IMG/VR virus record: IMGVR_UViG_3300032132_000754
Location: 72,117 to 136,116 of that record
Reading direction: 5' to 3' (one strand)
Origin: a virus
DNA length: 64,000 nt
Below, piece by piece: positions 4,780 to 53,161 of the stretch (position 1 is its first letter; each line of letters starts with the position of its first letter). The notes below the pieces were generated by a model that had not been told where the DNA came from, ran no database searches, and saw only the letters and a list, made by a program, of their open reading frames with translations. A program made the position numbers and the translations under genes.

Positions 4780-6441
4780 ATGTACGATCTGAACTTGCTT
4801 TCTGAACATTTTCCCTTCGAGGAATTCCGTCCTGGCCAACGAGAATGTATAGAGTCCATTCTTGAAGCCTTCGACAAAGGGAAAAGATTCGTGTTATTAG
4901 AAGCTCCTACCGGATCAGGAAAATCAGCAATCGGACTGACCGTTGCTAAGTACTTCGAAGACGCATATTATCTAACTATCCAAAAAATTCTGCAAGACCA
5001 ACTTGCCAACGAATTTGAAAACGATAAAATTAAATGCCTCAAAGGCAGAAACGCCTACCGTTGCAATTACTGGGAGACATATATGGAAAAATATATGTCT
5101 GATCCGGCTAAAATGAAACAAATGGAGGTCGACGCCAAAGATCCCGAAATCCACAAAACGATGGCCAACCCCCATTTGCCAGCCAGTGCTGGCGTATGCA
5201 TGGTAAAAGAACGTCGTAGCAAATCGGATCTCTGTTTTCCAAAAGGCAGTAGCGACTTAAAATCCAGCTTGTGCGACTATTGGAAAGCCGTTGGTCATTC
5301 AATGTCGTCGCACACCTGCATCATGAATTTCCACTCGTTCCTATATCAAACATCGGTGACTGATAGGTTCAAACCACGGAAAATGCTGATCATAGACGAA
5401 GCTCATAACTCAGAGCCTCAACTAATGGACTTCGTATCATTGACTCTAACAGACAGAGCCTTGCGAAAAGAAGGGGTTAAAATCCCAGAATTCGACACAG
5501 CAGAAGAATATGCCAAGTACTTTACTGATATTCGCCTGCCAGAAAAAATCGAAGACATGGTCCGATTGGCTCACGTCACAAGAGATTTTAAGAAAGCAGA
5601 AGAATGGAAGAAAGTTCTATTGCAATACAAAATTTTCCTCAATAACTTCGAATCCGGAGATTGGATCCCAAACTGGGAAGATAGAGGGTATTACCGGCGA
5701 GTGACTCTAAAGCCAATTTATGTAAACAAGCACGCTCAGTCCTATTTGTTCGGCTTCGGAGAAAAAGTTCTTATGATGAGCGCAACAGTGCTACAACCGA
5801 AAATTATCTATGATTCATTGGGAATCGACCCTAAAGAAGCTTTTGCTTATAGAATGAAAAACAGATTCCCAGCTGAAAACCGTCCGATCTATTTCCAACC
5901 AGCGGGTAGCATGGCATATCGGAATAAACGAGAGACGATGCCAAAACTTCTCGACTCGATCGAGTCGATCTGTGCTAACTATTCTGATAAAAAAGGAATT
6001 ATTCATACGCACAACTTCGAAATTTCGAAGTACATCATTCAAAACGGCAGTAAAGCACTAAAAAAGAGAATCTTCTTCCAAGAAAATTATTTCTCCAAGG
6101 AAGAAATGCTTAAAAAACACGCTAAATCAGAAGATGGTATCATTGTCGCACCAGCTATGCACGAAGGGCTTGATTTAAAAGATGATCTTTCCAGATTTCA
6201 GATCATCTGCAAAGTCCCATATCCATCGTTCCAAGACAACGAACAATTAAAAATTAGAATGCAGTTATCGCAAGATTATTATAATTGGTTGACTGCCCTA
6301 AAGATTGTACAATCATATGGCCGAAGCATTAGAAGTACAGAAGACTGGGCAGATACTTATATCTTAGACGAAGATTTTAGTCGTTTTAAGAGAAACTGCA
6401 TGAAACTTCTGCCAAAATGGTTCTTAGAAGTTATCCAGTAA
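4780..6441 (+). CDS. superfamily 2 DNA helicase, XPD/DinG-like with probable Fe-S cluster
   Basis: A 553-residue helicase started at ATG 4780 (AGAGGA upstream). Motifs: Q-like FRPGQ (16-20), Walker A APTGSGKS (42-49), DEAH (206-209), and QSYGRSIRS near the C-terminus as motif VI. Between Walker A and DEAH are C86, C95 (in CLKGRNAYRC, close to the GRxNYxC of XPD/DinG), C140, C152 and C165, as expected for a 4Fe-4S domain. Known: this family unwinds DNA 5'-3' or resolves DNA structures. Inferred: a phage repair or recombination helicase. The IscA homologue at 14375-14707 could supply the cluster. Confidence 0.85.
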   Translation: MYDLNLLSEHFPFEEFRPGQRECIESILEAFDKGKRFVLLEAPTGSGKSAIGLTVAKYFEDAYYLTIQKILQDQLANEFENDKIKCLKGRNAYRCNYWETYMEKYMSDPAKMKQMEVDAKDPEIHKTMANPHLPASAGVCMVKERRSKSDLCFPKGSSDLKSSLCDYWKAVGHSMSSHTCIMNFHSFLYQTSVTDRFKPRKMLIIDEAHNSEPQLMDFVSLTLTDRALRKEGVKIPEFDTAEEYAKYFTDIRLPEKIEDMVRLAHVTRDFKKAEEWKKVLLQYKIFLNNFESGDWIPNWEDRGYYRRVTLKPIYVNKHAQSYLFGFGEKVLMMSATVLQPKIIYDSLGIDPKEAFAYRMKNRFPAENRPIYFQPAGSMAYRNKRETMPKLLDSIESICANYSDKKGIIHTHNFEISKYIIQNGSKALKKRIFFQENYFSKEEMLKKHAKSEDGIIVAPAMHEGLDLKDDLSRFQIICKVPYPSFQDNEQLKIRMQLSQDYYNWLTALKIVQSYGRSIRSTEDWADTYILDEDFSRFKRNCMKLLPKWFLEVIQ

Positions 6442-6442
6442 T

Positions 6443-9400
6443 TTAATATGCAACACCCAGCGGTGCAGTGATATCAAATCCGTTGCCGAATTCCATAGTA
6501 AACGTACAAGTTCCAGTACCCACAACGCAGTTTGTAATGTCGACAGTGTGTGCTCCAGGGCCGATTGGTGTACCATCGCCCTGTCTTGTAATCATTAAGC
6601 CAACTGGAATGTTGAATCTAAGTCCAACCTCAGTACCATCAGAAGCCGTCCATGTAATGCCAGTTTCAGAAGCTAATGAGAATGCCGATCCATCGCCACC
6701 ACCAAATTCGAAGTTCATAACTGCATCATCTGGAATAGTGAAATCTGTGGTAAATGTGAACCGGAAAGATCCAACTGCTGGAGTATCTCCGGCAACTGCC
6801 GATACGGTGAATGTACCCTGAACGAAAGTAACTGATGCGTTGGCGGTTGGGGAAAACGTTCCGTTAGTAAAACCGTTGACAGTCTTAACGCCAGGAGTCT
6901 GCGAAACCATACCCAAAACAACTTGGCCTGAAGCGTTGGTGTTTTGAATACCAGACGGTGTGAACGTATTGTTTAGACCAGTCGAGAATGTATCGACCAG
7001 CATGTCCGGAGTTGGGTTGCCATTCGCATCGACCAAAGTAATAGTGACGGTCTTAGAATCGGTTTCATCTGTAATGACAGTCCCAGCGGGCGCGGCGACT
7101 GAAGAACCAGCATCGACAGGGGCACCAGCATGGAAATCGGCCATTGATACGTCTGTAACAGCACCAAACCCGCTAGTTACATTGGCCGAAAAAGTTCTTG
7201 TGACGGCGGCTCCACCTGGGGCAGAACCGGTCTGAGTTGTTGAGATAGTGAACGTTGCTTCCCCGGCAGCATTTGTTACTGCTGGTGCAGAAACAGTATC
7301 TGCGCCTACTGAAGAAGATAATGATACCGTTTCGCCAGCTACCGGATTACCATGAGTATCTCCGACAACAACAGTAACACTATGAGTCTGGACACCATCG
7401 GCTACAACGGCGACCATAACTCCGGAAGAAATATCTGGTTTAGCACCTGCACCACCAGCTTCCCAAGTAGCCATATCAGTAGAATCAACAGCAATCAACA
7501 TCTCGGGCAATCCAGCGCCATCAGGCGTGCCAAGATCAGAAATGATACCAGATGCTGTCGCTACCTTAGTACCATGACCACAACCTCCCGGAAGCGGATC
7601 TAGAACATTAGTACCATCTAAAAGATCTGTAGTACCATGCCAGTGATCAAAAGCACAAGCGTCTGGAGGAGAAATGCTCATAAATGGATTTCTACCTAAA
7701 TCAAATTCGCCATAATTGAATGGGGCGTAATTCCCGCCAATCTGAATAACCGGAACCAAAATGATACTTCCACCCGTGCTTGGAATTGCGGAGGTCACAG
7801 AAGTACCGCCATCAACAGCTACATCCGGCAACGAAGTCGGGCTAAAGGTATCGGATGTTGCACCACCAGAGACACTAGCCTCAATAGTAGGTTGGTTACT
7901 AACCAGATTGTCTAAAGTTAAGTTATTGGTAGCAATACTGGATCCGTTAGTAACGGAAGTTGCACTATCCAAAACAGCCACGCCGCCAGTTACAGCCCAA
8001 TCTACTGTTTCTCCAGAACCCACAGGGTTACCAAACTGGTCTGTAACAAAAACACCCATGGCTGATCCAAGAGCACCACCAACAACTGCTGATTGGCCAG
8101 TTCCACTACTAGTCGCGACATTATCCGGAACATCCGGTAGGGGAACTAGCGAGGTAAATTCGTAAGTACTAACGCCACCACTTACACTAGCCTCGACATC
8201 CGGCGCGTTACTAACCAAGTTATCTAAAGTTAAGTTATTTTCCGCGATTCCAAAAATGTCTGTGACCGATGTAGCACCGTCTAGAACAGCCGCACCATTC
8301 GTGACAGCCCAATCAACAGTATGCCCAGATCCAACAGCATTCATAAATTGGTCTCGAATAAACACTCTCATATCAGAGAAGAGAGCACCACCAACGGTAC
8401 CACCATTGCTATCTCCAGTTAGCAGCGCGACATTGACTGGAACATCTGGCGTTCCAGTAGCTGGGAAACCGACTGAGCCAGCAACTGGGAAGCCGCTAAC
8501 GGTAGCCTGTAAGAAGTTAGACCCTGTCACTGTACCCAATTGCCAATCAGCAATCGAGGCAATACCAAAACCATTAGTGAGGGAAGAAGCTGTTACACTA
8601 CCACCGCCCATGGTAACATTCCAAAGAACTGTAGCGCCAACAACGGGCAATAGCCCAGCATCAACAACAAGAACTTCTAACGCGATACCAGGAATTTGGT
8701 TAACCACCTGCATCTGACCACTGCCAGCAACAAGGCTGATATTATCAGGCGTTCCAGTCATGGGAGTTGCGGTCGCCGTAAAGCCAACATCTGGTAGCGC
8801 CCCGAAAGACGCTTCAGCAGTTCCAGGACCAACACCAGCACCCATAGTCCAAGTAGCAGAAGCTTCGCCCATCGAGTTTGTCAATGACGATGGCGTAATA
8901 CTACCAGCCCCACCACTTACTGCCCAATTAACAGATTCTCCAACATTATAGTTCCCAAAAGTATCCATCAATCGAACTACTAACGGGGATCCGAGGGCAA
9001 CAGAAACCTGTGCGGACTGCCCATCACCGCTGACCAAAACCATAGAAGTCGGAACGTCCGGATCTCCAGTGGCTGTGAAACCAACGGATCCAGATAGAGG
9101 GAAACCACTTACAGTAGCTTCCAAAGTGTTAGAACCAGAAGCAGTACCTAACTGCCAATCTGCAATCGAAGCGATTCCAAAACCATTGGTTAGGGAAGAA
9201 GCTGTAACGCTACCGCCACCGCCAGTTACGCCCCAAAGGACCGTAGCACCAACGACAGGGTTCAACGCACCATCGACTACAAGAACTTCTAACGCAGTGC
9301 CAGGAATCTGATTAACGGTCTGAGACTGCCCATCACCGCTAATGAGACTAATATCATCGGGAACACCGATCGCCGGGGTAGCAGTCGATGTGGCTTGAAT

Positions 9401-12400
9401 AGTAGGCACTCCAGAAACCACGATAGCTAATTGTTGAACCCCAACTGCCAAACCAGTAGTCCAAATTGTTTGAGCAAACCCGGAAGAGTTCGTGACGGCC
9501 ATAACAGGCGCTGCAGAACCAAAGTCTGGGATGAAGGTAACGTATTCTCCTTCTACTGGGTTGCCATATTGATCTGTGACCAAAACGACGATCGGAGATG
9601 GCAGCGGGTTCCCAGCGACACCAGATTGGCCGTTACCACCGGCAACACCACTTGTAGATGCAGGACCAGCCTCTGAGGTCGCCCCCGTTGAAATAGATGG
9701 ATTAGATCCGCCTACAACTTGGGCGTCGATTGACTGCCCACCGATGCCAGTTGGCAAAGTCCAGATGACAGAAATTTGTCCATTAACATCTGTGATGCCC
9801 ATGACTGGCGTTACTGTGCCTGATGACGGCACAAAAGTGACGGAAACTCCAGAAGCCGGAACTCCTTGACCATCTGTGACAAAATAAATGATAGCGTCAA
9901 GATCTTCACCAGCAACACCAGTTTGTCCACCACCACTAATGATAGAGATAAATTCTGGGAGACCGGCAAAACTTGGTGGATCCACGAGCTGAATTGGTGT
10001 ACATTCGTCAACAAATTCGCTGCCCATATAAATCATGGTCATGCAACCATAGCCAGCAGCGATGCCGCCTTCAGCAATAACCTGATTTACATCTTCTCCA
10101 AATTTCAATTCAGTAAGAAGAACTCCACCAGCAACACCACCACCTATCATGTTTTCAGCGAAAACACTATTGGCATTTTCACCAAAAGCACTAGCATTAA
10201 GTTCAGAAATGATATTGACAGGAAACAATTGACTTGGGACTGGATCGCCTAAGAACAAGTTTGTAGAATCTTGGTCGTCAATAATCACTAATCCAGGAGT
10301 TTCTGGGTCAGCAATGGAAGTTCCTGGACCGCCGACTACAGTTGTACCCGGATCTTCCGGGTCCAAGCGATTACTACGAGCAGAAACAGTTAATCTATAT
10401 CCACGGCAGTAATCAACACCAGTCATATTGACCATTGAAGTGATCTTAAACGTTGGAGTAGTTGTAATGCTAGGCGGAACTTCAGTAGGAGGAGTCATGC
10501 CTGGGATGTCTTCTGGGACTATCTCGATAGGAACTTCTTCAATTGGCGGAACGATCGACGGCGGCATCTCCTCTTCAGGAGGCACAGAAGAAATAGGAAT
10601 TCCTACATGAATAGTTGTACTAGACCATTCATCATCACGAACTTTAATTTTAGGAACCTGGCTACTAAAGCCTGTTGTAATATCATCGGCGAACGCATAA
10701 GTTCCTGGACCAAACGGACCATCTTCTTGCTCACCAGCAACCATAGTGTTGAACAACAATTGATTATTGCCAATTTCAACGCTTGTATTATTTTGTAGAG
10801 GATCGTGCACCAACGGAGCTTGAACATTTGTTGGAGATTTTAACAGAGATCCCGGCGCGGCATCGCCAAAACTGATAATAACTCGGCCATCGCCAACTGC
10901 ACTCAAAGTAACATTATCTAAGTTATACTTAATAGCATAACTTCCCTTACCCAAAGCACCATCACTAGTGATAGGATTGCCACCGACTACATCGACCATG
11001 GGAGCGAAAGACGGAGCTGGAGGAGGAAGAACAGCACATGGCGGATCTACCACATCTGGAATAGGCGGTTGAATAGGAACTACGACCTGTACAAAGTCAC
11101 TATCTCCTTCACCCCCACCGCCTTCGCCAACCGTTTCACCTGGTTGTGGAGCCGGTGGCTCACTCTCCAAAATAGTCAATTGAGAACCGACCTGAAAAGT
11201 GACAGATGTCGGAATTTCAGTAGTTTCAACAATATCAATGCTAGAGATCGTACCAGTACCATCCGGGTTTTCGATCATAAACGTCGCGCGGACCGCTTCA
11301 GCATCGACGAAAGCACATCCTTCACGCTCGAATATCGCACCACCACAAATATCAGGGTCGAAATCTAACGAAACCGTAATCTCACCATCGCCAGCTAATT
11401 TAACTTCTGCACAGAATTTGTTTTCACTCCCATCAACAACTGATTCTACAGTAGAAAGAGCCTCAGATTGAACTTCAGCATCGGGAATTCCACTTGACTC
11501 TTCTTGTGGCAGAGGTGGAACAAATTCACCTTCAGGGACATTATCATTAACTTCGATTCCCTCGCCAGCATCTACTTCGCCAGAATCATCAAACTGAGGG
11601 CCGATAGAAATGGCCGGATCAGAAAGATCAACTGCATTTTCAGGATCTGTTAAATCGATTGGAGGCATAAGGAAAATGCCATCTTTAACACCACTGAAGA
11701 TTAGATTGTCACATTCACATATACACGGAACGGGAAATGGGATTGGAGCCTTTGGAGACCCCGTAATGCCACATGGCTGATCGCCAACATTTGGGCAGAA
11801 AAAGAAATCTTCCTGGCAACACTGCTCAGGAGGTTTAGGAGTTGTAATGATAGAAAATAAATAATTCGGATCAGTCTGAGTGAACCAATTGAAACGGTAC
11901 TGAGACCATCTACGAGCCTGAACGCAATCCCCAGTAGGCGTCCATAACGGAATCTCTAATGGAGGAACGACATATTCTTTAGGTGCGAATTTGAAAAAAC
12001 CAATGTCTCTAGCATCAGAAATAGAAAATTTAGCGCCAACAAACTCATTAGTAATGATATTGTCGACAGTATCGCCATTAATAGCTGCTAAATTAGCGAC
12101 AGGAACTTCCTCAAATAAGGCATTCTCAAAGATTACAATGTCGTCATTAGCTGCTGCTTTTCGTAGTGATACCACAGCTTGAGTACTTCGGACAGATGGG
12201 TCCTCTAAAATCTGTTCAATTACTTCAACAAACCCTGAACCAGCAGAACCTTGATCACCCTTGGCCCCACGCTGACGTGCTTTATACCGCCAACCGGCCA
12301 GATCAGATCCTTCAATAGTTATAGAACCGAAGAAACGCTTGCTAGTAGACTCATAGTCAGATTCGAAAGTAGTGACTTCAACGTTCAAACTAGCGTCATT

Positions 12401-13285
12401 AATAATAATGGAAGGAGCAGACCCATCAATTGGATGCAGTATTTCTATTAGAATTGCGTCATCATCGTCTGGGCCAAAAAGTCTTAAGGAAATTGGCGTC
12501 TCGATTGGAGTCTCTACCGTAGCATCCCAAGAAAACGCACCGTCTGTAGTTCCAACAGGAAGTTGGAAAACTTCCGCCGCGCCTGGCATCCCCGAAGTAC
12601 CGGTATCACCGACTTCTCCAACAACACCTTTAGGGCCAACGCAGCAGTTACGAATTAACTTCTGGTAAAGACGACCCCTATCAATTTCAATTCGTAAACG
12701 AGTTTGGATTTTCTCCGGTTTGATGATCTTGCCGCGATCACCACCAAAAATGTTGATATTTTCTGATTTTACAATAAATGTTAATTGTGTATTAGAAACG
12801 ATCTCATAATTTCCATGAATCGTTTCTAGAAACAGCCCAGCCCATTCATCGATCTGAATCGGAACATTGATAGACATCGTGATTTTAGCAGTACCGTCAC
12901 CAAGATCAGCAATACGAGCAACAATAATAGATGCCCTGACTTCTTTAGGCTCAGAAGTCCGTTCCGGCGCGAATTTAATAAGATCGTCGCCGGAATGAAA
13001 CAAGTAATAATATGGGTCTTCTACGTCAGTAGCCAACTTGAACTTACTGAAATCGAAACCTTGTTCAATTAGCTCTTGTAGGAGAGCTAGCTTACGATAT
13101 AATTCTGGCGAAACCAAACCGTCTGTAGTAGGATCGACGATTTCTGGAACAGGTACAACACCAATGTTTACCCATTCTCTCTTTTCAGCGTTATATTCAT
13201 ATATGATACCACTGCTGGTGATAACTTGATCACCATCTTTGTTGCCAAATGAAGGCAGTTTTGGTTTGAATGTAGGGTCGGCCAT
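6443..13285 (-). CDS. giant Ig-like (Big_1) repeat virion/adhesin protein
   Basis: A 2280-residue protein started at ATG 13285, preceded by TAAGG. Order: N-terminal virion-like region (1-210), two short collagen-like runs (GPKGVVGEVGDTGTSGMPG near 212-230, GAKGDQGSAG near 350), a cysteine-containing region (~470-560), beta-rich repeats, then at least seven ~100-residue units around residues 1090-1800 of the form SGDGQS...VxVxDxxGNPV..G..V.W.V..G.G.....S.TN..G.A, matching bacterial Ig-like Big_1 domains of invasin/intimin; two divergent copies follow. Known: Ig-like domains decorate phage tails and bind carbohydrate. Inferred: a long tail fibre or host adhesin. Confidence 0.8.
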   Translation of the reverse strand: MADPTFKPKLPSFGNKDGDQVITSSGIIYEYNAEKREWVNIGVVPVPEIVDPTTDGLVSPELYRKLALLQELIEQGFDFSKFKLATDVEDPYYYLFHSGDDLIKFAPERTSEPKEVRASIIVARIADLGDGTAKITMSINVPIQIDEWAGLFLETIHGNYEIVSNTQLTFIVKSENINIFGGDRGKIIKPEKIQTRLRIEIDRGRLYQKLIRNCCVGPKGVVGEVGDTGTSGMPGAAEVFQLPVGTTDGAFSWDATVETPIETPISLRLFGPDDDDAILIEILHPIDGSAPSIIINDASLNVEVTTFESDYESTSKRFFGSITIEGSDLAGWRYKARQRGAKGDQGSAGSGFVEVIEQILEDPSVRSTQAVVSLRKAAANDDIVIFENALFEEVPVANLAAINGDTVDNIITNEFVGAKFSISDARDIGFFKFAPKEYVVPPLEIPLWTPTGDCVQARRWSQYRFNWFTQTDPNYLFSIITTPKPPEQCCQEDFFFCPNVGDQPCGITGSPKAPIPFPVPCICECDNLIFSGVKDGIFLMPPIDLTDPENAVDLSDPAISIGPQFDDSGEVDAGEGIEVNDNVPEGEFVPPLPQEESSGIPDAEVQSEALSTVESVVDGSENKFCAEVKLAGDGEITVSLDFDPDICGGAIFEREGCAFVDAEAVRATFMIENPDGTGTISSIDIVETTEIPTSVTFQVGSQLTILESEPPAPQPGETVGEGGGGEGDSDFVQVVVPIQPPIPDVVDPPCAVLPPPAPSFAPMVDVVGGNPITSDGALGKGSYAIKYNLDNVTLSAVGDGRVIISFGDAAPGSLLKSPTNVQAPLVHDPLQNNTSVEIGNNQLLFNTMVAGEQEDGPFGPGTYAFADDITTGFSSQVPKIKVRDDEWSSTTIHVGIPISSVPPEEEMPPSIVPPIEEVPIEIVPEDIPGMTPPTEVPPSITTTPTFKITSMVNMTGVDYCRGYRLTVSARSNRLDPEDPGTTVVGGPGTSIADPETPGLVIIDDQDSTNLFLGDPVPSQLFPVNIISELNASAFGENANSVFAENMIGGGVAGGVLLTELKFGEDVNQVIAEGGIAAGYGCMTMIYMGSEFVDECTPIQLVDPPSFAGLPEFISIISGGGQTGVAGEDLDAIIYFVTDGQGVPASGVSVTFVPSSGTVTPVMGITDVNGQISVIWTLPTGIGGQSIDAQVVGGSNPSISTGATSEAGPASTSGVAGGNGQSGVAGNPLPSPIVVLVTDQYGNPVEGEYVTFIPDFGSAAPVMAVTNSSGFAQTIWTTGLAVGVQQLAIVVSGVPTIQATSTATPAIGVPDDISLISGDGQSQTVNQIPGTALEVLVVDGALNPVVGATVLWGVTGGGGSVTASSLTNGFGIASIADWQLGTASGSNTLEATVSGFPLSGSVGFTATGDPDVPTSMVLVSGDGQSAQVSVALGSPLVVRLMDTFGNYNVGESVNWAVSGGAGSITPSSLTNSMGEASATWTMGAGVGPGTAEASFGALPDVGFTATATPMTGTPDNISLVAGSGQMQVVNQIPGIALEVLVVDAGLLPVVGATVLWNVTMGGGSVTASSLTNGFGIASIADWQLGTVTGSNFLQATVSGFPVAGSVGFPATGTPDVPVNVALLTGDSNGGTVGGALFSDMRVFIRDQFMNAVGSGHTVDWAVTNGAAVLDGATSVTDIFGIAENNLTLDNLVSNAPDVEASVSGGVSTYEFTSLVPLPDVPDNVATSSGTGQSAVVGGALGSAMGVFVTDQFGNPVGSGETVDWAVTGGVAVLDSATSVTNGSSIATNNLTLDNLVSNQPTIEASVSGGATSDTFSPTSLPDVAVDGGTSVTSAIPSTGGSIILVPVIQIGGNYAPFNYGEFDLGRNPFMSISPPDACAFDHWHGTTDLLDGTNVLDPLPGGCGHGTKVATASGIISDLGTPDGAGLPEMLIAVDSTDMATWEAGGAGAKPDISSGVMVAVVADGVQTHSVTVVVGDTHGNPVAGETVSLSSSVGADTVSAPAVTNAAGEATFTISTTQTGSAPGGAAVTRTFSANVTSGFGAVTDVSMADFHAGAPVDAGSSVAAPAGTVITDETDSKTVTITLVDANGNPTPDMLVDTFSTGLNNTFTPSGIQNTNASGQVVLGMVSQTPGVKTVNGFTNGTFSPTANASVTFVQGTFTVSAVAGDTPAVGSFRFTFTTDFTIPDDAVMNFEFGGGDGSAFSLASETGITWTASDGTEVGLRFNIPVGLMITRQGDGTPIGPGAHTVDITNCVVGTGTCTFTMEFGNGFDITAPLGVAY
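8541..9219 (-). repeat. near-identical Big_1 segments, 612-bp offset
   Basis: The segments 8541-8607 and 9153-9219 are nearly identical and encode the same peptide (…SLTNGFGIASIADWQLG). The 612-bp offset equals two Ig-like units, so a two-domain block was duplicated inside the giant gene. Confidence 0.8.
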
Positions 13286-13288
13286 CAA

Positions 13289-13300
13289 CCTTATATTTAC
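13289..13300 (-). promoter_or_regulatory. TAAATA-type late promoter candidate before the giant gene
   Basis: Reads GTAAATATAAGG on the minus strand, directly before the start of the 2280-residue gene. Similar TAAATA-containing AT boxes precede other virion genes here and resemble the T4 late box TATAAATA. Inference only; its AAGG end also serves as the ribosome site. Confidence 0.3.
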
Positions 13301-14358
13301 TTAAGGATATGTGCTGTGCCTTCACGTTGAGCAGAAGGGGTACGGCGTTCAACCCGCAACACATTATCCATACGCTTATTATGCAGATCTTCAATACTAC
13401 GAACTCCCATATCTTGAAAGGAGTATTGAAGAGCGCACTTAAGATAAAGCATTAAATCACCAACGTTGCCCGTAGGCTCTACAGTTGTGCTAACGCCCTG
13501 GGCCACTACTTGAGTTCCATATCGGCCATTGCCGCCGCTCGTTAGAACTTCTTTACTAGCCATTCCGCGATAAACTTTTCGATGATTTTCCCAACCAGGA
13601 GCCTCATTACAACCAGCCACCATACTGCCCATCATGACAGTACTAGCGCCAAGAAGTAAAGCTTTAGCGATATGACCAGAATTTTTAATGCCGCCATCAG
13701 CAATAACAGGGACCCCAGCCTCTCTGGCCACCCTAGCACAATGATGTACTGCAGTAGCTTGAGCACGACCAACGGCCATCATTTCCTGGGTAGTACAAAT
13801 GCTACCCGGACCCATTCCGACTCGAATTGCGTCAGCTCCGGCAGCGATTAAACCGCGTGTCTGATAACTAGTAACCACGTTACCAGCGATAACGTCAACG
13901 CCAGGGAAATTATCTTTGATATACTTAATGGTATTAAGCTGGAAGAGAGACCAACCATGAGCAGCATCGATAAGAACAACACGAGCCCCCGCATCAACCA
14001 CAAGCCCAATCCTATCACGATCATCCTCCCTAGTGCTAACAGCCGCTCCGACTAACAAACCACGACTTTTAGCCACAATAGAAACTTCTATAGCTTGCTC
14101 TTCAGCAGTCAAATTACTATGGATAATGCCAACACCACCAACTTCGCCCATACCAATACCCATACTAGCGTCGGTTACCGTATCCATAGGACTGCTAATG
14201 AAGGGAAGCTCGATCTCGATGTTTTTAGTTAGTTTGGTTTTGAAATGAACTTCTTCTCTAGGAAAATCGACAAAACCTGGAAGAACGATGAAATCGTCAT
14301 AGGTAAAACCAGGTGCTCCATTCTTAAAAAGTTCACTTATTGAGTTACCATCTTGCAT
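13297..14358 (-). CDS. guaB: IMP dehydrogenase-like protein lacking CBS domains
   Basis: A 353-residue (beta/alpha)8 barrel protein, started at ATG 14358 after a strong GGGAGGGCG. Seen: N-terminal TYDDFIVLPGFVDFP, PFISSPMDTVT, catalytic loop GMGPGSICTTQ with C188, ADGGIKNSGHIAKAL, MMGSMVAG, RGMASKE, and a C-terminal ERRTPSAQREGTAH like the IMPDH carboxy end. The ~120-residue CBS pair that normally follows the IIHSNL segment is missing, so the length is ~350 instead of ~490. Known: IMPDH makes XMP from IMP with NAD+; the related GMP reductase shares the barrel. I favour IMPDH from the SICTTQ loop and C-terminus. Confidence 0.8.
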   Translation of the reverse strand: MQDGNSISELFKNGAPGFTYDDFIVLPGFVDFPREEVHFKTKLTKNIEIELPFISSPMDTVTDASMGIGMGEVGGVGIIHSNLTAEEQAIEVSIVAKSRGLLVGAAVSTREDDRDRIGLVVDAGARVVLIDAAHGWSLFQLNTIKYIKDNFPGVDVIAGNVVTSYQTRGLIAAGADAIRVGMGPGSICTTQEMMAVGRAQATAVHHCARVAREAGVPVIADGGIKNSGHIAKALLLGASTVMMGSMVAGCNEAPGWENHRKVYRGMASKEVLTSGGNGRYGTQVVAQGVSTTVEPTGNVGDLMLYLKCALQYSFQDMGVRSIEDLHNKRMDNVLRVERRTPSAQREGTAHILK

Positions 14359-14374
14359 ATCGCCCTCCCGCGCC

Positions 14375-14707
14375 CTAAATAGAAAAGCTAGTACCGCAAC
14401 CGCAAGTACCAGAACTGTTCGGGTTGTTAAATACCAAACGATGACCAAGATTCTCTTCTACTAAATCGACAGACATACCGTCTAAAAACATGAGAGATTT
14501 TTTATCAACAACTATTCTCACGCCTTCCGACAAGAAGACCTTATCATCCTTTTTAGGCAGTTCGAAAACGCGAGACGCATGTTCCATCTCTACCCCATAT
14601 TCGAACCCGGAACAACCACCACCAGTTACATTAAATCTCACCCCGCCGAGGGGGGAAAGTAGCTTGGCTTTAATGAAATTCGCTGCTGCTTCTGTAAGTG
14701 TTACCAT
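14375..14707 (-). CDS. A-type Fe-S carrier protein (IscA/HesB/ErpA family)
   Basis: A 110-residue protein of normal family length with the three conserved cysteines C32 (GGGCSG), C102 and C104 (TCGCG near the C-terminus). Known: these proteins receive and pass on Fe-S clusters as dimers in the cytoplasm. It lies 16 bases upstream of the IMPDH-like gene and both are probably co-transcribed. It lacks a Shine-Dalgarno sequence but has GTATCTAA exactly 5 bases before its ATG. A likely client within the window is the XPD/DinG-like helicase. Confidence 0.9.
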   Translation of the reverse strand: MVTLTEAAANFIKAKLLSPLGGVRFNVTGGGCSGFEYGVEMEHASRVFELPKKDDKVFLSEGVRIVVDKKSLMFLDGMSVDLVEENLGHRLVFNNPNSSGTCGCGTSFSI

Positions 14708-14712
14708 TTATG

Positions 14713-14720
14713 TTAGATAC
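14713..14720 (-). promoter_or_regulatory. GTATCTAA promoter element of the iscA-like gene
   Basis: On the minus strand GTATCTAA is followed by CATAA and then the ATG at 14707, the same 5-base spacing as at six plus-strand genes. It forms one arm of a perfect 9-bp inverted repeat (14712-14720 with 14737-14745). Confidence 0.6.
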
Positions 14721-14736
14721 GGGGTGGGGAAAAGTC

Positions 14737-14744
14737 GTATCTAA
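14737..14744 (+). promoter_or_regulatory. GTATCTAA promoter element facing the ncRNA region
   Basis: The opposite arm of the inverted repeat carries GTATCTAA on the plus strand, pointing away from iscA toward the gene-free 0.8 kb. With the spacing seen elsewhere, transcription would begin at about 14750. Because no protein gene follows, this argues for a promoter, not a translation signal. Confidence 0.5.
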
Positions 14745-14749
14745 CGTAT

Positions 14750-15440
14750 GTTGCGAGTGTCCAATATGCTCAGTGACATGAGAAATCCAAGTGGGATAGA
14801 GGCACCAGGTTCATTTTAAGGTTTTGGCCTGGCCAGTATACTGGTTTACCCAGTCATACCCAACCTCCATAGTGGAGGAAACTAAAGCAAAGAGCAATAG
14901 TTCATTTCTCGGTTTTATTACAACAAATCAACGGCTACGGCTGTTGGTGATCCCGACGTACTATGACAATTTTAAACTACAACAATAACATGAGCCAAAA
15001 AGCAATTAAAGCTAAAAATCAGCAAAAAGCAAAAGGTCCATATATCTATCAAAGTATCTGCGAATGTTATAAAAAGTCAAGAGTTAGCGCAAGCGTCAAT
15101 ATAAAATTGTTGGGATGTGTGATGAGAACAGAGATGGTGGGGGTCCAACACGGCAACGTGCTCTGGATAAGAACGTTACGAGCGTTCACGTCATTCTGCC
15201 TCCACTTGGTAGGACTGCCACATATAAAGGCAAGCCTAATGTGCGATAGTGATCAAGAATTCATAAACAGAAAAACGCTAGATGCTGTACGGTCTGAAAA
15301 GCCACTCGTCACTGCCCAAAAGGTAGTGGTGTCTAGTAGACCTGTGGATGGGATTCTTAACTCCATTAATTATAGAGGGAAGTCAGCTCGTGGTTTGGAC
15401 GCCATGGGGTTATTAACAGGTTCAGTACTTCGTTAATTCT
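14750..15440 (+). ncRNA. candidate large structured non-coding RNA (~0.7 kb)
   Basis: This is the only stretch of the window over 300 bases without a credible gene (14708-15592). It holds a series of plus-strand hairpins: CCAG-TATA-CTGG (14833-14844), CCTCCA-TAG-TGGAGG (14864-14878), a 7-bp stem closed by the UNCG tetraloop TACG (14929-14946), CACG-GCAA-CGTG with a GNRA tetraloop (15149-15160) and an outer TCCA/TGGA pair, GAACG/CGTTC (15171-15187), AGG..TGCC/GGCA..CCT (15211-15237), and CACTGCC/GGTAGTG (15310-15328). UNCG and GNRA loops are strand-specific and fix the plus strand. Known: phages carry large ornate RNAs such as GOLLD and ROOL, often near tRNAs; I cannot assign a class. Ends are inferred from the promoter and T-rich tail. 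Confidence 0.6.
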
Positions 15441-15464
15441 GATTCTTCTTTTCTCTCTTATTTA
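15412..15464 (+). terminator. weak stem plus T-rich tract ending the ncRNA
   Basis: An AT-rich stem ATTAAC/GTTAAT (15412-15417 with 15432-15437) is followed by a pyrimidine tract rich in T (15438-15464). It is a plausible 3' end for the RNA, but the stem is weak. Confidence 0.3.
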
Positions 15465-15530
15465 TTGGGGCGTCACTGGGGAAACCTTTGTATCCAAACA
15501 ATAAACACAATTAATTATAATAACTTTCTC

Positions 15531-15546
15531 AATAAATACATAAATA
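15531..15546 (+). promoter_or_regulatory. late-type promoter candidate (AATAAATACATAAATA)
   Basis: Two overlapping ATAAATA boxes lie ~47 bases before the collagen-like fibre gene. They resemble the T4 late promoter box TATAAATA. Inference from similarity and from the late nature of the gene. Confidence 0.4.
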
Positions 15547-15592
15547 ACACTGAAAGGCATTTAGCCATTTCAAACGTATTACAGAGGTTGTT

Positions 15593-16972
15593 ATGGCAAG
15601 CGGATTATTCAACATCGTCAATGTTATTAATAATGGGGGATTGCCCTCAGCTTATACCCTAACGACATCATCCATAGCTGGGATCGCATTAAACGACCAC
15701 ATCGGAGCGCAGCTAGCAGGCGGAAGAGGATCAGTTTACAAGGTTAGTAGCATTATCGGGCCTACAACCATCATCGTAGAAGATCTCTTAACAGAAGGCA
15801 ACGACGGCAGCGCCGAGTTTGGCCCCCCAGCGCTCGGTCCCGCATCTTTTGAGACTCCGGAGCCTAACAAAGGTTTATCACAAATTCCGTTTGGGTCCCC
15901 AGGTTGGGACGCTGTAATTCGCAGAAATTACGCCGTGTTAGATGTCACTATTGGCACTACCGGCCCAGAAGGTCCGGCGGGCCCTGTAGGAGTTGGTAAC
16001 ACTGGCGGAACTGGAGTCGTTGGCCCTACTGGCAACTCTGGGACCACTGGACCTACTGGTGGCGGAATTACTGGTGGTACGGGCGGCACCGGAGGGACTG
16101 GAGGCACCGGAGGGACTGGAGCTGCTGGTACAAATGGGACGGATGGGACTACCGGACCAACGGGCGCTGGCGGAGATACTGGGCCGACAGGCGCTGGGCC
16201 TACAGGAGCTACTGGTCCCGCTGGCGCACCAACTGGCACGACAGGCCCAACTGGTGCAGATGGGACTACTGGACCAACAGGCGCAGATGGCATCACTGGC
16301 CCTACCGGAACTGTAGGTATCACCGGCCCGACAGGTGCAGATTCAACTGTCGTTGGTCCCACGGGCGCTGATGGCATCACTGGCCCTACCGGAGCAGATT
16401 CGACCGTTGTTGGTCCAACCGGAGCTACTGGAGCTGGTACTACAGGTCCTACTGGAGCAGATTCGACCGTTGTTGGCCCAACTGGACCAACTGGCGCACA
16501 AGGGACACAAGGCATCCAGGGAATTCAAGGCATCCAGGGAATCGTTGGTCCCACAGGATCAGGCGCTACATCTCTTAGCATCAGAATCATTACTGGCGAT
16601 ACTACATTGTTGTCTAGTGACGATGTCATTATTAATCATACTACGGCTGGTTTTAGTACAACTGTTACGCTTCCTAGGGCTAATACCATGCCGGTTAAGC
16701 AGTATTATTTTAAAAACGCGAATAACCAAATCAATCCTGCAACCACAACTCTATTGGGTCTGGTTGTTACAGCCGGTGATAGAATTGATACAACTAACCC
16801 ATTGTTGACAGCTTGTAGCTTAAGAACTGGAAGTGGTGGGGCTAATAACGGTACAGCAGGCGTCATTCTAATACCAGATGCTGCCAATAATAGATGGTTA
16901 ATCTTCGGCAATTACGATCCTAGGACCAACATCGGTACCGCTGGCGCACATGCTGGCGCTAACCTAAATTAA
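15593..16972 (+). CDS. collagen-like tail fibre protein
   Basis: A 459-residue protein. Residues 1-123 form a globular N-terminal region, probably the virion attachment domain. Residues ~124-322 are almost unbroken Gly-X-Y triplets ([35 protein letters not shown]), i.e. a collagen-like triple helix, with many Pro in the X position and Thr in Y. Residues ~325-459 form a beta-rich C-terminal domain, the likely trimerisation or receptor-binding head. The start has AGAGG upstream. Known: collagen-like stalks trimerise in phage fibres. Confidence 0.85.
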
Positions 16973-18046: not shown

Positions 18047-19597
18047 ATGTCTGAATCAGTAATTGAAACCGCAGTCAACATCACTGAGCGCGAACGGAAG
18101 GAAGCTAATGTATCCTTCCCCGGAGCTACAGAGTTTGTTCATCTACATAACCATACGCTTTTCAGCCCATTAGATGGGATTGCAACGCCGGACGAATATT
18201 TCAGTGCTTGCGCTCACCTTGGCAATCCAGCATTTAGTATTACAGACCACGGTAGCTTGGCTAACATTCCAGATGCTTATTGGGCTGGGAAAAAGCATGG
18301 AGTAAAATTCATTCCTGGATGTGAGATTTACTTCTCCCCAGCGTATCCAGAGCTTAAAAGATTGCAACAAGACCCAGCGTTCAAATTGGGCGCTCTAAGA
18401 CCGGATTATACAAAAACCGCTTTTACTGTTGAAGACCTCGATAGTGAGGAGAAGTACTCCGATTTCCGCCGCCAACGACACTTGTCCGTTTTAGCCATGA
18501 ACATGGTTGGTTATCGGAATCTGATCCAAATGACTACTGAAGCGTGGGCTGACGGATTCTATTATAAACCGAGAATTTGGTTTGAAAAAATCGAAAAGTA
18601 TCACGAAGGTCTAATTATTCTCTCCGGATGTCTAAATGGTCCGATTTCTCATGCTCTACGGCGGGCGGAGTTTTGGAAAAAAGTAGAAAACAAAGAAACT
18701 ACACAAATCACTCGGCATTTTAGAAAACAAAAGATGACGATCGATCTAAACATCACACCAGGTGAAGCCGCTATTAGGCGAAAGAAAAGCCAAAAAGAAG
18801 CTATAGACTGGGTTATTAAATTTCGTAATTTGATGGGTGACCGTTATTATTTAGAACTACAAATGCCTGGAGACGAGATTCCGTTCGGTAAGGAAGCCTT
18901 TAGACAGACAGCGCTAATTTCTAAAAAACTTAAAGTCCCGGCTGTAGTAACAAACGATTGCCACTACTTAGAAAGACCAGATTTTAAAGTCCAAAAATGC
19001 ATGATGGCAATTGACCAAGGTTTGTCGATTAATGACCCAAACTTATTTCATGTAAACTCGGACGAACAATTCTTCAAGAGCAGGGCTCAACTTAGAAAAA
19101 CTTATTTCGACGGTGGTTATAACAATTTTCAAGAACCACACTTATTTGAAGAAGCTTGTGATAACACTGTAGCTCTTGCGGAGCGTTGCTCTGGATTCAA
19201 GCCAGATCTCAACCCCAAATTGCCATCAGTCCCAGACGCCAATAACAAAATCCGCAAATTGGTTTATGACTCCCTTAAGAAGAGAGGGTTGTGGGACAAT
19301 CAAGATAAATTCGTTGTCGACGGTAAGTCAGTAACATATAAACAACAGGCTGATATTGAATTAGAACGTTATACCGAAAAAGGGTTCGCTTCTTATTTCT
19401 TAATCATTAGGGATTTGATTGCTCATTCTAAAAGTCAGGGATGGGATATTGGGCCTGGTCGAGGAAGCGCTGGAGGGTCTCTGGTGTGTTTCTTGCTTGA
19501 TATTCACTCGATCGACCCATTAGCGTGGGGTTTAAGTTCGGTAAGATTTATGGGCGACAGTCGCGGTGGACGATTACTAAATATCAAAATGGAGTAA
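18047..19597 (+). CDS. DNA polymerase III alpha subunit, N-terminal part (PHP and first palm segment)
   Basis: A 516-residue protein. PHP domain: HLHNH with H33 and H35, ITDHG (D67, H68), GCEIYF and TNDCHY are present, so its metal site looks intact. The palm begins after ~420 and reaches the nucleotide-binding loop GPGRGSAGGS (GRGS at 471-474) and SIDPLAWGL, then stops ~30 residues later, before the catalytic PDIDID motif, which is in the gene at 20507. Known: in DnaE and PolC these parts form one polypeptide. Inferred: two subunits assemble the polymerase. The remaining tail is too short to hold an N-intein. Confidence 0.9.
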   Translation: MSESVIETAVNITERERKEANVSFPGATEFVHLHNHTLFSPLDGIATPDEYFSACAHLGNPAFSITDHGSLANIPDAYWAGKKHGVKFIPGCEIYFSPAYPELKRLQQDPAFKLGALRPDYTKTAFTVEDLDSEEKYSDFRRQRHLSVLAMNMVGYRNLIQMTTEAWADGFYYKPRIWFEKIEKYHEGLIILSGCLNGPISHALRRAEFWKKVENKETTQITRHFRKQKMTIDLNITPGEAAIRRKKSQKEAIDWVIKFRNLMGDRYYLELQMPGDEIPFGKEAFRQTALISKKLKVPAVVTNDCHYLERPDFKVQKCMMAIDQGLSINDPNLFHVNSDEQFFKSRAQLRKTYFDGGYNNFQEPHLFEEACDNTVALAERCSGFKPDLNPKLPSVPDANNKIRKLVYDSLKKRGLWDNQDKFVVDGKSVTYKQQADIELERYTEKGFASYFLIIRDLIAHSKSQGWDIGPGRGSAGGSLVCFLLDIHSIDPLAWGLSSVRFMGDSRGGRLLNIKME

Positions 19598-20506: not shown

Positions 20507-22975
20507 ATGGCTGTTAAAACATGGGCTGACCTCGCCAGAAAAGCGATTATTAGCTGTGCACAGAAAAAACTGGGCACAGAATATAAAGATCGACTAAAGC
20601 GAGAAATAAAAGAAATCACCAAACAAGGTGCTAACAATTATTGGGTTAGGCTCTACAACACCGGCCAAAAATTTGAGCACAACAAAAATGGTTTAGTTTT
20701 CCCTTATCTATTAGACATGACACCAGTAGACCCGGTCGAATCGGAAATCGCTCACATTACGCGATTGGATCCAGAATTCCCGGACATCGATATTGACCTA
20801 CTGCCGATCTCTAGAGATCCTATTAAAGCGTTCGCTGAAAAGAAGTACGGCACCGAACACGTTTGTAACGTAGGGTTGTGGCTTACTTATAAGGCTAGAT
20901 TAGCCATCCAAGATTCAGCGACAGTTCTTGGACATAACCGACACGAAGCGATCGCAGCCCTTAAAGATCTCCCGGCAGAATTCGACGACATGTCGTTCAA
21001 TGATGCTTACGATGAGTTCGAATCATTTAAAAAGTATTCAGATGATTATCCAGAGGTAGTCCACTTAGCTTATCGAATGAAAGGGAAAATTAAATCTCAA
21101 GGGAAGCACGCTGGTGGGCTAATTATCTCATCAGTTCCAATTAGAGACTTCGTCCCATTAACATTCATTGGAGCCAAAGGCAACAAGCAATGGACTTCGG
21201 CATGGACCGAAGGGATGGCTGCGTCTCAGTTGTCTAAGTTCGGGCTGGTAAAATTCGACTTACTTGGCCTACTAAACTTGGCCTATATTTATGACGCCAA
21301 AAAACTAATTGAAAAATCTAAAGGGATTAAAATTGATTTCGACGAAATCAATCCCCTGAAAGACTTGGCTGGCTGGATGACTCATTCAGATGGAAAAGTC
21401 GAGAAAATTCTTCTAAACGATCCTAAAGCTCTAAAACGAGCTAACGATGTAAAATTGGAATCAATTTTCCAATTCGATACTGACCTGCAAAAGAGCATTC
21501 TAGAAAAGGGCGGCACAAAGTCGTTCATGGATCTAGTCATTTATAACAGTCTTGGGCGTCCTGGGCCTTTGCCAATGGTCGATGTCTACATTAGCAATCG
21601 AGATAAAGACAATTCTTGGAAAAAACGCTTACACCCTAAGATGTTTGATATCTTGGAAGAGACAAAAGGCGTACTGACGTTCCAAGAACAGCTTCTGCGA
21701 ATTTGGGTCGAAGTGTGTGGATTCACCATGCCTGAGGCCGAAGCCGCCCAGAAAGCTGTCAAGAAAAAGAGAATGGAGATTCTAGACGAAATCGGTCCCC
21801 GAGTCATCGAAGGTGCCACAATTCTATTAGGGAAAGACGTAGCAGAAGAATTGTGGAGTAACATGGTGTCTTTTGGTCGTTACTGTTTCAATAAGAGCCA
21901 CGCCGTCGGATACACCTTAATCGCTTATCGGTGCTTGTGGCTTAAGACCCACTTTCCCGCTGAATGGTGGGCAGCAGTATTATCTAAGTGTCCCAACCAC
22001 AAGACTTTACAGTTCATGGGAGCTGCCAGAGCCGAAGGTATCAAATTTGGCTCTATTAACGTCAACCATCCGACAGCAGAATTCTCGGTAGAGGATGATA
22101 GGGTTATTCCTGGAATTCTTAGTGTTAAAGGAATCGGGAAGAAATTTGGTAAAAAGCTTGTAGACGAAGCTAAAAATGGCAAATTCAACAACTTTGATGA
22201 ATTCGTGGAGCGTGTTGGCAAAGACAAGACTGCAATCGAAAGATTGATCAAATTAGGTGGTTTCGATTCTTTCTATACAAATCGCAAGGCTCTTTGGATG
22301 TGGTATTATTACAAATATTGCAGTGGGTCCGACGTCACTAAGACTAAACGCCTCATCAATTTCTGTTATACTTGGCCTTCGGATATGATCCACGACGAAC
22401 GACGTCGACAGGCTAAAGAATACATGCTGGCATATCCGAAACGCAAGAAGATACCCCAGAAAATTACAAAGTGGGAACCATCGGCGCGTATAGATATTCC
22501 ACGCCCATTTAATTCGGAAATGCAGCTCGCAAAAGAGCAAATAAGATTGGCTAATAGGCTCGATCTAGATATCGACAATGTAATTGCATTATTTCCGAAA
22601 GATTTCACGCTATCCGAAATTCTAGATTTCGAAAAAGAATATTTGGGTTACTATTGGCACTCCCCAGTCGACGTCTTTGAGCATGAAGACGGATGTAAAA
22701 TCGAGGATGCTAAGAAAACTGGTATTCTAGAGTGTGTAATTGAAGACGTACAAAAACGGAAAGGCACAAGAGGGGAGTATTTGATCCTCAGTGTCACCGA
22801 CGGAATTAATTATGCTCGCATCAACGTCTGGACCGACGAGATGAATTTCAATGATGAAGAAGTCTTTGAATCAGGTGTCGGAGCAAGAATGAACGTGCGT
22901 TGGCAAGAACGTTGGAGAAGTTTTAGTCTTAAAAGGCGGTCATTCATTGTGCCGCTAATGCTCAAGGAAGATTAA
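20507..22975 (+). CDS. DNA polymerase III alpha subunit, C-terminal catalytic part
   Basis: An 822-residue protein carrying the catalytic core. PDIDID (D93, D95, D97) and GLVKFDLLG (D251) supply the palm aspartates. RPGPL, FQEQ and FGRYCFNKSHAVGYTLIAY mark the fingers. A helix-hairpin-helix-like segment (SVKGIGKKFGKKL) and a C-terminal OB fold (~740-810, ILECVIEDVQKRKG) follow. The first ~90 residues look like a worn copy of the palm segment at the end of the N-part (RLKREIKEITKQGANNYW; LLDMTPVDPV versus LLDIHSIDPL) without the GRGS loop. It acts with the product of 18047-19597 as the replicative polymerase. Confidence 0.9.
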   Translation: MAVKTWADLARKAIISCAQKKLGTEYKDRLKREIKEITKQGANNYWVRLYNTGQKFEHNKNGLVFPYLLDMTPVDPVESEIAHITRLDPEFPDIDIDLLPISRDPIKAFAEKKYGTEHVCNVGLWLTYKARLAIQDSATVLGHNRHEAIAALKDLPAEFDDMSFNDAYDEFESFKKYSDDYPEVVHLAYRMKGKIKSQGKHAGGLIISSVPIRDFVPLTFIGAKGNKQWTSAWTEGMAASQLSKFGLVKFDLLGLLNLAYIYDAKKLIEKSKGIKIDFDEINPLKDLAGWMTHSDGKVEKILLNDPKALKRANDVKLESIFQFDTDLQKSILEKGGTKSFMDLVIYNSLGRPGPLPMVDVYISNRDKDNSWKKRLHPKMFDILEETKGVLTFQEQLLRIWVEVCGFTMPEAEAAQKAVKKKRMEILDEIGPRVIEGATILLGKDVAEELWSNMVSFGRYCFNKSHAVGYTLIAYRCLWLKTHFPAEWWAAVLSKCPNHKTLQFMGAARAEGIKFGSINVNHPTAEFSVEDDRVIPGILSVKGIGKKFGKKLVDEAKNGKFNNFDEFVERVGKDKTAIERLIKLGGFDSFYTNRKALWMWYYYKYCSGSDVTKTKRLINFCYTWPSDMIHDERRRQAKEYMLAYPKRKKIPQKITKWEPSARIDIPRPFNSEMQLAKEQIRLANRLDLDIDNVIALFPKDFTLSEILDFEKEYLGYYWHSPVDVFEHEDGCKIEDAKKTGILECVIEDVQKRKGTRGEYLILSVTDGINYARINVWTDEMNFNDEEVFESGVGARMNVRWQERWRSFSLKRRSFIVPLMLKED

Positions 22976-50112: not shown

Positions 50113-50604
50113 TTATCCTGCAGCTTCAAAGCTTACACCAGCTTGGCCATTTACCGCACCGCCCCAGTAAACAACTCTCACAGTCACTGTATTACTACCT
50201 ACGCCCTGCACATTGTTCACACTTGTTCCGGCAGTATCAGGCTGTGTATTACGTTGACTCGATGCTCCAGCGGCCATTCTCCAAACAAAACCTGGACCAA
50301 AATTGAATGAAACAACATTAGGCCCGCCAGTATTAATAGTACCAGTGGCACTGCCAGCATTAAATGAATTAAATCCTGCCCCTTGCGCGCCTGTATTGCC
50401 CTGGTTGCCTTGATTGCCTTGGCCACCTTGTGCTCCCTGTGGACCTTGTGCTCCCTGTGGGCCTACAGCGGAAACTGTAACCTGGCCAGGAGCAGTTTGA
50501 GACACACCGCCAGACGGAAACTCTAAAGATCTTAAATTAGTAGTGTTCTGAGGAACACCACCGATGGTGATTTGTCCAATACTTGGTGGGAATGATCTTG
50601 GCAT
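50113..50604 (-). CDS. short collagen-like virion protein (copy 1)
   Basis: A 163-residue protein: N-terminal MPRSFPPSIGQITIGGVPQN… domain, ~36-residue Gly-X-Y stretch (~49-84, GPQGAQGPQGAQ, GNQGNQGNTG), and a C-terminal beta-sandwich-like domain ending GVSFEAAG. About 85% identical by eye to the next copy. Probably a trimeric virion spike. Confidence 0.75.
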   Translation of the reverse strand: MPRSFPPSIGQITIGGVPQNTTNLRSLEFPSGGVSQTAPGQVTVSAVGPQGAQGPQGAQGGQGNQGNQGNTGAQGAGFNSFNAGSATGTINTGGPNVVSFNFGPGFVWRMAAGASSQRNTQPDTAGTSVNNVQGVGSNTVTVRVVYWGGAVNGQAGVSFEAAG

Positions 50605-50619
50605 AACTTATTTTTGTAC

Positions 50620-51111
50620 TTATCCTGAAGCTTCGAAATTTACACCAGCTTGGCCATTTACAAAACCACCAAGGTAAACAACTCTAACAGTTACTGTGCT
50701 AGTACCAACGCCCTGGACATTTTGCACGCTTGTTCCGGCAGTATCAGGCTGTGTATTGCGCTGGCTGGATGCGCCATGTGCCATCCTCCATATAAAACCT
50801 GTACCGAAGTTGAATGAAACAATATTAGGGCCGCCAGTATTAATTGTGCCAACGCCACTGCCAGCTGTAAATGATGAGTATCCTGCACCGACTAATCCTG
50901 TATTGCCTGCATTTCCTTGGTTGCCTTGGTTGCCTTGTGCTCCCTGTGGTCCCTGTGCCCCTTGAGCACCTGGAACTGAAACAGTAACCTGACCAGGAGC
51001 AGTTTGAGACACACCGCCAGACGGAAACTCTAAAGATCTAATGTTAGTATTGTTCTGTGGAACACCACCGATAGTTATTTGTCCAATACTTGGTGGGAAT
51101 GATCTTGGCAT
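50620..51111 (-). CDS. short collagen-like virion protein (copy 2)
   Basis: A 163-residue tandem paralogue of the 50113 gene, offset 507 bases, including a nearly identical leader (GTACAAAAATAAG before both ATGs). The collagen stretch (GAQGAQGPQGAQGNQ) and terminal domain differ at a few positions, mostly in the loop between the two domains. The tandem copy could provide antigenic or receptor variation. Confidence 0.75.
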   Translation of the reverse strand: MPRSFPPSIGQITIGGVPQNNTNIRSLEFPSGGVSQTAPGQVTVSVPGAQGAQGPQGAQGNQGNQGNAGNTGLVGAGYSSFTAGSGVGTINTGGPNIVSFNFGTGFIWRMAHGASSQRNTQPDTAGTSVQNVQGVGTSTVTVRVVYLGGFVNGQAGVNFEASG

Positions 51112-52598: not shown

Positions 52599-53161
52599 GC
52601 CAATCGAACCCAAACATCCGCATGACAGATAGGAGATTCACTTCCAGTAGCGCTAATATATCGGAACCCAATCAAATTTCCAGCCGAAAATGCTACTGGT
52701 GGACTTATAGTAAACGGACTGGTAAGAGGGAACCCGGCACTGTCGACCGCTAATGGTGCACCAATAACAGTGCCGTTCACAGTAACTTCATAAGTAGTAA
52801 CACCGATTGCGCCGTCGTTGTTTATAATGACAAATTCAATTTGCCCATCTACTGGAACAGTATATCCCAGTGTTGGGAATGTACCTAGAGGGATAGCTGG
52901 CAAAATATCTATAGGCCCAGGGCCTGAAATACTAGTATCTGAAAAAGTAAGTTTAGTTAAACCGCTGGTTCCTGTGATTCCTAAATGGTCTTCTGAGCTA
53001 TGGGCTGTCGCGTCGAATGCTTCTGCTGCAGGCACCCCTGTAAATCCAGCATGGTCTATTCCAGAGTGAGCCGCCGTCGTAAGATCGCCAACGCCGGGAA
53101 TCCCAGTGTGGCTAACTCCAGAGTGAGCATTAGTATTAAATGGGTTTCGTCCTTGATACAT
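52595..53161 (-). CDS. virion protein with HxxxDHxG repeats
   Basis: A 188-residue protein from ATG 53161 (overlapping the upstream TAA). N-terminal ~65 residues hold three copies of AHSGV/I/S-x-DH/SH-x-G-x-x-GV (AHSGVSHTGIPGV, AHSGIDHAGFTGV, AHSSEDHLGITG), also found in the 45194 gene. The C-terminal 110 residues are a beta sandwich. Inferred to be a fibre assembly or attachment component. Confidence 0.65.
   Translation of the reverse strand: MYQGRNPFNTNAHSGVSHTGIPGVGDLTTAAHSGIDHAGFTGVPAAEAFDATAHSSEDHLGITGTSGLTKLTFSDTSISGPGPIDILPAIPLGTFPTLGYTVPVDGQIEFVIINNDGAIGVTTYEVTVNGTVIGAPLAVDSAGFPLTSPFTISPPVAFSAGNLIGFRYISATGSESPICHADVWVRLA

Follow-up and report, generated by a model that had tools for sequence, protein, structure and literature searches.

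To our knowledge, only a handful of phage RNAs reach the size of the one described here, and what they do is still an open question. That two of them, ROOL and GOLLD, form RNA-only cages is reportedly a recent finding. GOLLD RNAs are often over 800 nt long, with a variable linker that sets a 5' region apart from a 3' region, and a cryo-EM study placed the linkers of both ROOL and GOLLD inside the RNA cage (PMC12286853). Staphylococcus phage K has two lncRNAs that were described as similar to GOLLD and ROOL in location and abundance (PMC9241854). OLE RNA, another large class, is mostly cellular (PMC12054373).

We analyzed a 64,000-nt stretch of DNA (hereafter the window), which covers positions 72,117 to 136,116 of the IMG/VR virus record IMGVR_UViG_3300032132_000754. 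Positions 14771-15488 of its plus strand would encode a noncoding RNA of ~720 nt with two folded domains, a long-range helix and a poorly structured linker. Based on sequence comparison, this is very probably a conserved structured RNA. The best reading, which draws on analogy, is that it represents a new class of large RNAs in phages, with a layout resembling that of ROOL and GOLLD. We put the probability that the RNA is conserved, structured and also free-standing, rather than a leader, at roughly 0.6.

Gene setting and folding of the locus

The record is 185 kb long and carries phage-type genes. Based on Pfam and PHROGs, the genes of the window include DnaE in two pieces and genes for RecA-like, DnaB-like helicase, tail-fibre-like, IMP dehydrogenase and IscA-like proteins. 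The RNA lies in an 885-bp gap (14708-15592), the largest intergenic gap in a hand-made list of gene candidates (the runner-up is 329 bp), consistent with an earlier note on this DNA that had described the place as the only gene-free kilobase. Upstream, the gene for an IscA-like Fe-S protein (14375-14707, minus strand; Pfam Fe-S_biosyn, 1.5e-17) reads away from the RNA, and directly downstream is a collagen-repeat tail-fibre-like gene (15593-16972, plus strand; Pfam Collagen, 1.9e-10; PHROG tail fibre). Between the leftward gene and the RNA, just before the IscA-like start codon, is a 14-bp inverted repeat (14709-14722/14735-14748; fold z -2.46, equalled by 3 of 200 shuffles), which may be an operator, a promoter region serving both sides or a stem at the 5' end of the RNA.

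Several other features of the window were observed. The IMP dehydrogenase gene (13297-14361, minus strand) adjoins the IscA-like gene, so host-type metabolic genes stand side by side in a phage. A 2281-aa protein (6443-13288, minus strand) has several bacterial Ig-like (Big_1) domains, and further collagen-repeat proteins are encoded at 50113-51111 and 53161-55686. DNA polymerase III alpha is split into two genes (18047-19597 and 20507-22975) with small ORFs between them; the split also occurs in the relatives L002 and L004, and the N-terminal gene of L004 has an intein-like insert. A T4-like late promoter motif is present at three sites within the window, which does not exceed the chance level.

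Over 14746-15490 the plus strand folds to -216.3 kcal/mol, compared with -191.0 for shuffles (z -3.2; none of 60 shuffles as low), and the minus strand gives a z of +0.3, so the plus strand is the structured one, as had been claimed before. By itself the interval 14750-15440, within which the earlier note had placed the RNA, has a folding z of just -1.66. The RNA is indeed there; the 3' boundary given for it is not supported, and conserved sequence continues to ~15488. The four hairpins picked out in that interval (14929-14946, 15149-15160, 15171-15187 and 15310-15328) are all present as placed and all fold. The abundance of hairpins, which had been taken as a signal, is no higher than shuffled sequence gives: there are no strict Watson-Crick stems of at least 7 bp (0.3 expected), and the single UNCG- or GNRA-capped stem (0.14 expected) is matched by 63 of 500 shuffles. 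A promoter box had also been proposed before the RNA, and our promoter scan was empty upstream of it. The T-rich tract noted after the RNA exists (15440-15467); a role as a terminator is not supported, since no terminator-like site was found by the scan anywhere in 14600-15620. The tract is the predicted 3' strand of a helix with ~15360-15385, which is not significant when taken by itself.

Conservation of the structure in a second phage

Using the N-terminal part of DnaE from the window (18047-19594) we found three contigs, one of which, L003, is a 370,804-bp contig of a distantly related giant phage whose corresponding gene product is 62% identical to that of the window. A homologue of the RNA is located at ~5650-6635 of L003, in a long gap that precedes a collagen-repeat gene (6696-7532). 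The upstream gene is a leftward HslV-like gene as opposed to the IscA-like gene of the window; the RNA is thus conserved though the upstream genes differ. The two sequences share the blocks AAAYCCAAGURGGAKAGAG, GGUUUUG..CUGGCCAG, GCCUCYACUUGGUAG and GGGGCGNNACUGGGG, which are barely detected by blastn (best piece, E 0.03). These blocks and the pairings common to both sequences define the extent of the RNA (~14771-15488), so its ends are approximate. The palindrome CUGGCCAG is a conserved part of each RNA's 5' domain (14829-14836 in the window, 5831-5838 in L003) and is a candidate site for RNA-RNA self-pairing.

To evaluate the structure we give most weight to a test in which it was fixed beforehand, because several block choices were tried in the alignments. 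A covariance model (R2) was made solely from positions 15128-15240 of the window, and its fold was the minimum-free-energy structure predicted for the window itself. In 217 kb of loci searched, L003 was the sole non-self match of R2, whereas a sequence-only model (R3) found the window and nothing else at E<=10. Over 12 whole records, R2 matched itself, L003 at 6225-6338 (22.1 bits, E 0.0065) and, weakly, a single site elsewhere (E 2.2); these E-values are rough, as the calibration was shortened. In the R2 alignment, which is fitted to the model and thus biased towards the structure, 28 of 31 predicted pairs form in L003, 10 of them changed on both sides, and 95.2% of cells are paired. When the partner was slid by 1-3 columns, only 32-44% of cells were paired, with 0-1 two-sided changes. 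Compensatory pair changes beyond controls, the general criterion for a structured RNA, are thus present, and the covariation check on a homologue that had been proposed for this locus came out in favor of the RNA.

The covariance model, the pair counts and the structural alignment all support the 3' core (15136-15206). It consists of an outer stem (15136-15144/15198-15206), a hairpin with a GNRA loop (15145-15147/15164-15166 and 15149-15152/15157-15160; CACG-GCAA-CGUG at 15149-15160) and a second hairpin (15171-15177/15181-15187). For the structural alignment of 15130-15212, 1 of 300 column shuffles matched the score and none of 300 the consensus energy. Pair counts in L003 also identify the adjacent hairpin (15210-15213/15235-15238 with 15216-15219/15229-15232), in which 7 of 8 pairs are kept, 3 of them through changes on both sides. 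The 3' end part (15246-15488) includes the hairpin at 15310-15328 and the conserved GGGGCGNNACUGGGG...AAACCU at 15467-15488; its consensus energy was reached by none of 100 shuffles and its alignment score by 11 of 100. The blocks 15246-15372 and 15340-15500 by themselves did not beat shuffles, and structural alignments that took in the entire 5' half or 3' half were no better than shuffles.

The two domains are joined by a predicted long-range helix, CCAAGUGGG/UCCACUUGG (14787-14795/15201-15209), which closes a loop of ~400 nt. Its counterpart in L003 is CCAAGUAGG (5787-5795)/UCUACUUGG (6299-6307), and the single variable position covaries, from G-C in the window to A-U in L003. Based on column shuffles of the two blocks, the P value is 0.00055, or 0.0001 when the compensatory change is included. 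In the unconstrained ensemble of the window the first seven pairs have probabilities of 0.96-0.99, and in L003 the helix has probabilities of 0.0-0.66, varying with the chosen ends. The long-range helix and the outer stem of the 3' core compete or alternate, because the 3' strand of the helix overlaps 15198-15206; the two are alternatives over 15201-15206.

Within the 5' domain, hairpin H2 (14805-14809/14828-14832) pairs CCAGG with CCUGG in the window and CCAGA with UCUGG in L003, with a conserved loop, AUUUWWAGGUUUUG. Hairpin H3 (14840-14854) reads ACUGG-UUUAC-CCAGU and corresponds to GCUGU-UUA-ACAGC in L003, the outermost pair being A-U in the former and G-C in the latter. The UNCG-capped 7-bp hairpin CAACGGC-UACG-GCUGUUG (14929-14946) is present in the window, and no counterpart of it was identified in L003. 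A candidate terminal helix P1, CAGUGAC/GUCACUG (14771-14777/15472-15478), comes from the unconstrained minimum-free-energy fold of the window; in L003 the pairing tried has a probability of 0, and the registers used for P1 and for some of H6 and H8 are off by at least one base. From the sequence we also read a candidate pseudoknot between the H2 loop (14818-14824, AAGGUUU) and 15482-15488 (AAACCUU), which could form in L003 as well; both of its strands are invariant and hence without covariation. For the pair counts of the 5' block by itself, slide controls were favorable and 60 of 500 letter shuffles reached the observed value, a weak result because 15 of 18 pairs never vary.

The domains flank an AT-rich linker (~14961-15110) that has 30% GC and is weakly paired. 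Its mean pairing probability is 0.45, compared with 0.65-0.66 in the 5' and 3' domains.

At present the class has two known members, the window and L003. Searches of phages by blastn with both sequences as queries returned short chance pieces only, and no relatives were retrieved with the 157-aa frame described below or with the IscA-like protein. In scans of viral contigs for patterns made from three conserved blocks, L003 was the only plausible member, and a scan of genome contigs gave no further one. Decoys from the pattern scans were rejected using a model of the 5' part (R1), one set also by reading the sequences. A 17-bit match in G016 was rejected as it does not keep the conserved parts, and two bacterial genome contigs were rejected as chance matches. 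The whole records of five relatives identified by DnaE (L010-L014, 44-48% identical) have no credible R1 or R2 match (best R2 E 2.2); therefore, the RNA is either confined to a narrower clade or diverged.

Free-standing RNA, leader or gene

Under the favored reading, the free-standing RNA would start at its own promoter, and an own transcript start is most likely because the upstream gene reads away from the RNA in both phages. What decides between this reading and a giant leader is whether the 3' end falls near 15490, as we favor, or the transcript runs into the fibre gene. The RNA could be a cis-acting leader of the collagen-repeat tail-fibre mRNA that controls its translation or stability. 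That it adjoins a tail-fibre gene in both phages counts against a free-standing RNA and makes a leader role possible: the collagen-repeat gene is directly downstream on the same strand in both, the start codon is only 104 nt (window) or ~66 nt (L003) from the conserved 3' block, and we found no terminator between the RNA and the fibre gene. Nevertheless, the downstream proteins have little in common beyond collagen repeats, the spacer before the fibre gene is weakly conserved and the synteny may be plain common descent. Two domains, a long-range helix and, in L003, an ORF in the linker also go beyond the usual size and layout of leaders, and we know of no Rfam leader of such size and layout. 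On balance we consider the leader unlikely.

The gap also contains an open frame of 157 aa (14963-15436, plus strand, ATG start), which crosses the linker and the 3' domain. It is longer than any in 2000 dinucleotide shuffles, and the locus could accordingly be a protein gene, or an mRNA with ends folded for protection. Over the linker (50 codons) the frame has a coding-like codon score of 0.135, compared with a mean of 0.207 (sd 0.05) for genes and -0.08 (sd 0.06) for wrong frames, and an 87-aa ORF (5933-6196, plus strand) begins at the same place in L003. That ORF lies within the linker of the RNA, ends just ahead of the 3' domain and has a score of 0.139; another L003 frame also reaches 0.113, because AT-rich composition lifts the score. 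The score of the 157-aa frame falls to 0.008 over the 3' domain, far under that of genes, and the L003 equivalent of this domain has stops in all frames. The 3' domain is therefore counted as not coding, and the protein-level conservation of an ORF through the region that would have spoken against an RNA was not found. Scans of viral contigs, Pfam and PHROGs gave no relative for the 157-aa frame, and the linker ORFs of the two phages do not align. Coding does not explain base-pair covariation accompanied by single-base indels either, and we regard a protein gene as improbable.

The ORF within a large structured RNA in L003 recalls the endonuclease genes carried by introns, and raises the prospect of a diverged mobile RNA, whether a ribozyme, an intron or another kind, such as a group I intron or a HEARO-like element. 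The group I intron model (RF00028) has no match at E<=10 in either record (its control matched in 8 of 14 genomes), and none of the mobile RNA families, introns and HEARO included, appeared in the Rfam scans. The 87-aa ORF belongs to no Pfam family, its one PHROG match is weak and of unknown function (E 0.025), and the flanks of the RNA do not form two halves of one gene. A mobile RNA is thus very improbable. That there is no functional RNA at all, the L003 match being leftover DNA similarity and the fold chance, is hardly credible: only two sequences are compared and the two 3' blocks fail against shuffles by themselves, but the structure model made from the window alone finds L003 where the sequence-only model does not, two-sided changes far outnumber those of slid controls, the long-range helix exchanges a pair and folding is strand-specific.

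Comparison with known large RNAs

The earlier proposal of a large structured noncoding RNA outside the known families agrees with our results: the pairs are kept in L003, and all Rfam families fail, GOLLD and ROOL included. At gathering level Rfam identified only the two tRNA genes of the window, and over the RNA region the window and L003 each gave a single chance match below threshold. The GOLLD model (RF02032) has no match at E<=10 in the window record or the L003 record, nor in cmscan. The same applies to the ROOL model (RF03087) in both records and in cmscan, no positive control having matched that model. By these model tests on sequence, the RNA is not a member of GOLLD or ROOL.

OLE and other large Rfam classes resemble it in being large, ornate RNAs of unclear function, and differ in that no Rfam match links them to it. 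The phage K lncRNAs are likewise large and noncoding, come from a large virulent phage and fall outside the named families; they are located by tRNA genes and were seen by RNA-seq, and phage K gave no match to R1. The likeness to GOLLD is in the large size (~720 nt here), the phage origin and the 5' and 3' regions around a variable linker. In contrast to GOLLD, which is frequently near tRNA genes, the RNA has no tRNA in or beside its linker, and the L003 linker holds an ORF. The nearest tRNAs are 10 kb away in the window, and there are none within the 21.5-kb L003 locus. ROOL is also an RNA of phages and prophages, of similar size, whose secondary structure is complex and whose linker lacks conserved sequence. 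It differs in that its model is unmatched and in that the RNA described here is not near a tRNA island. As regards the pseudoknots and conserved kissing loops of ROOL, the RNA has one candidate pseudoknot, which shows no covariation.

If the RNA is free-standing, its layout would be like that of ROOL and GOLLD, a folded shell with a variable linker, and by analogy it may be an RNA-only multimer holding its linker or a cargo. A bolder version, which we regard as a long shot, is that the class is unrelated to ROOL and GOLLD and forms an RNA-only particle that, in at least one phage, has a small protein gene in the enclosed linker. If true, the cage would enclose or package an mRNA that is part of the RNA itself, with the 87-aa ORF of L003 as a concrete and testable twist. 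An independent class with the layout of two domains plus linker in giant phages would raise the question of whether linker enclosure, as in ROOL and GOLLD, is a recurring phage strategy.
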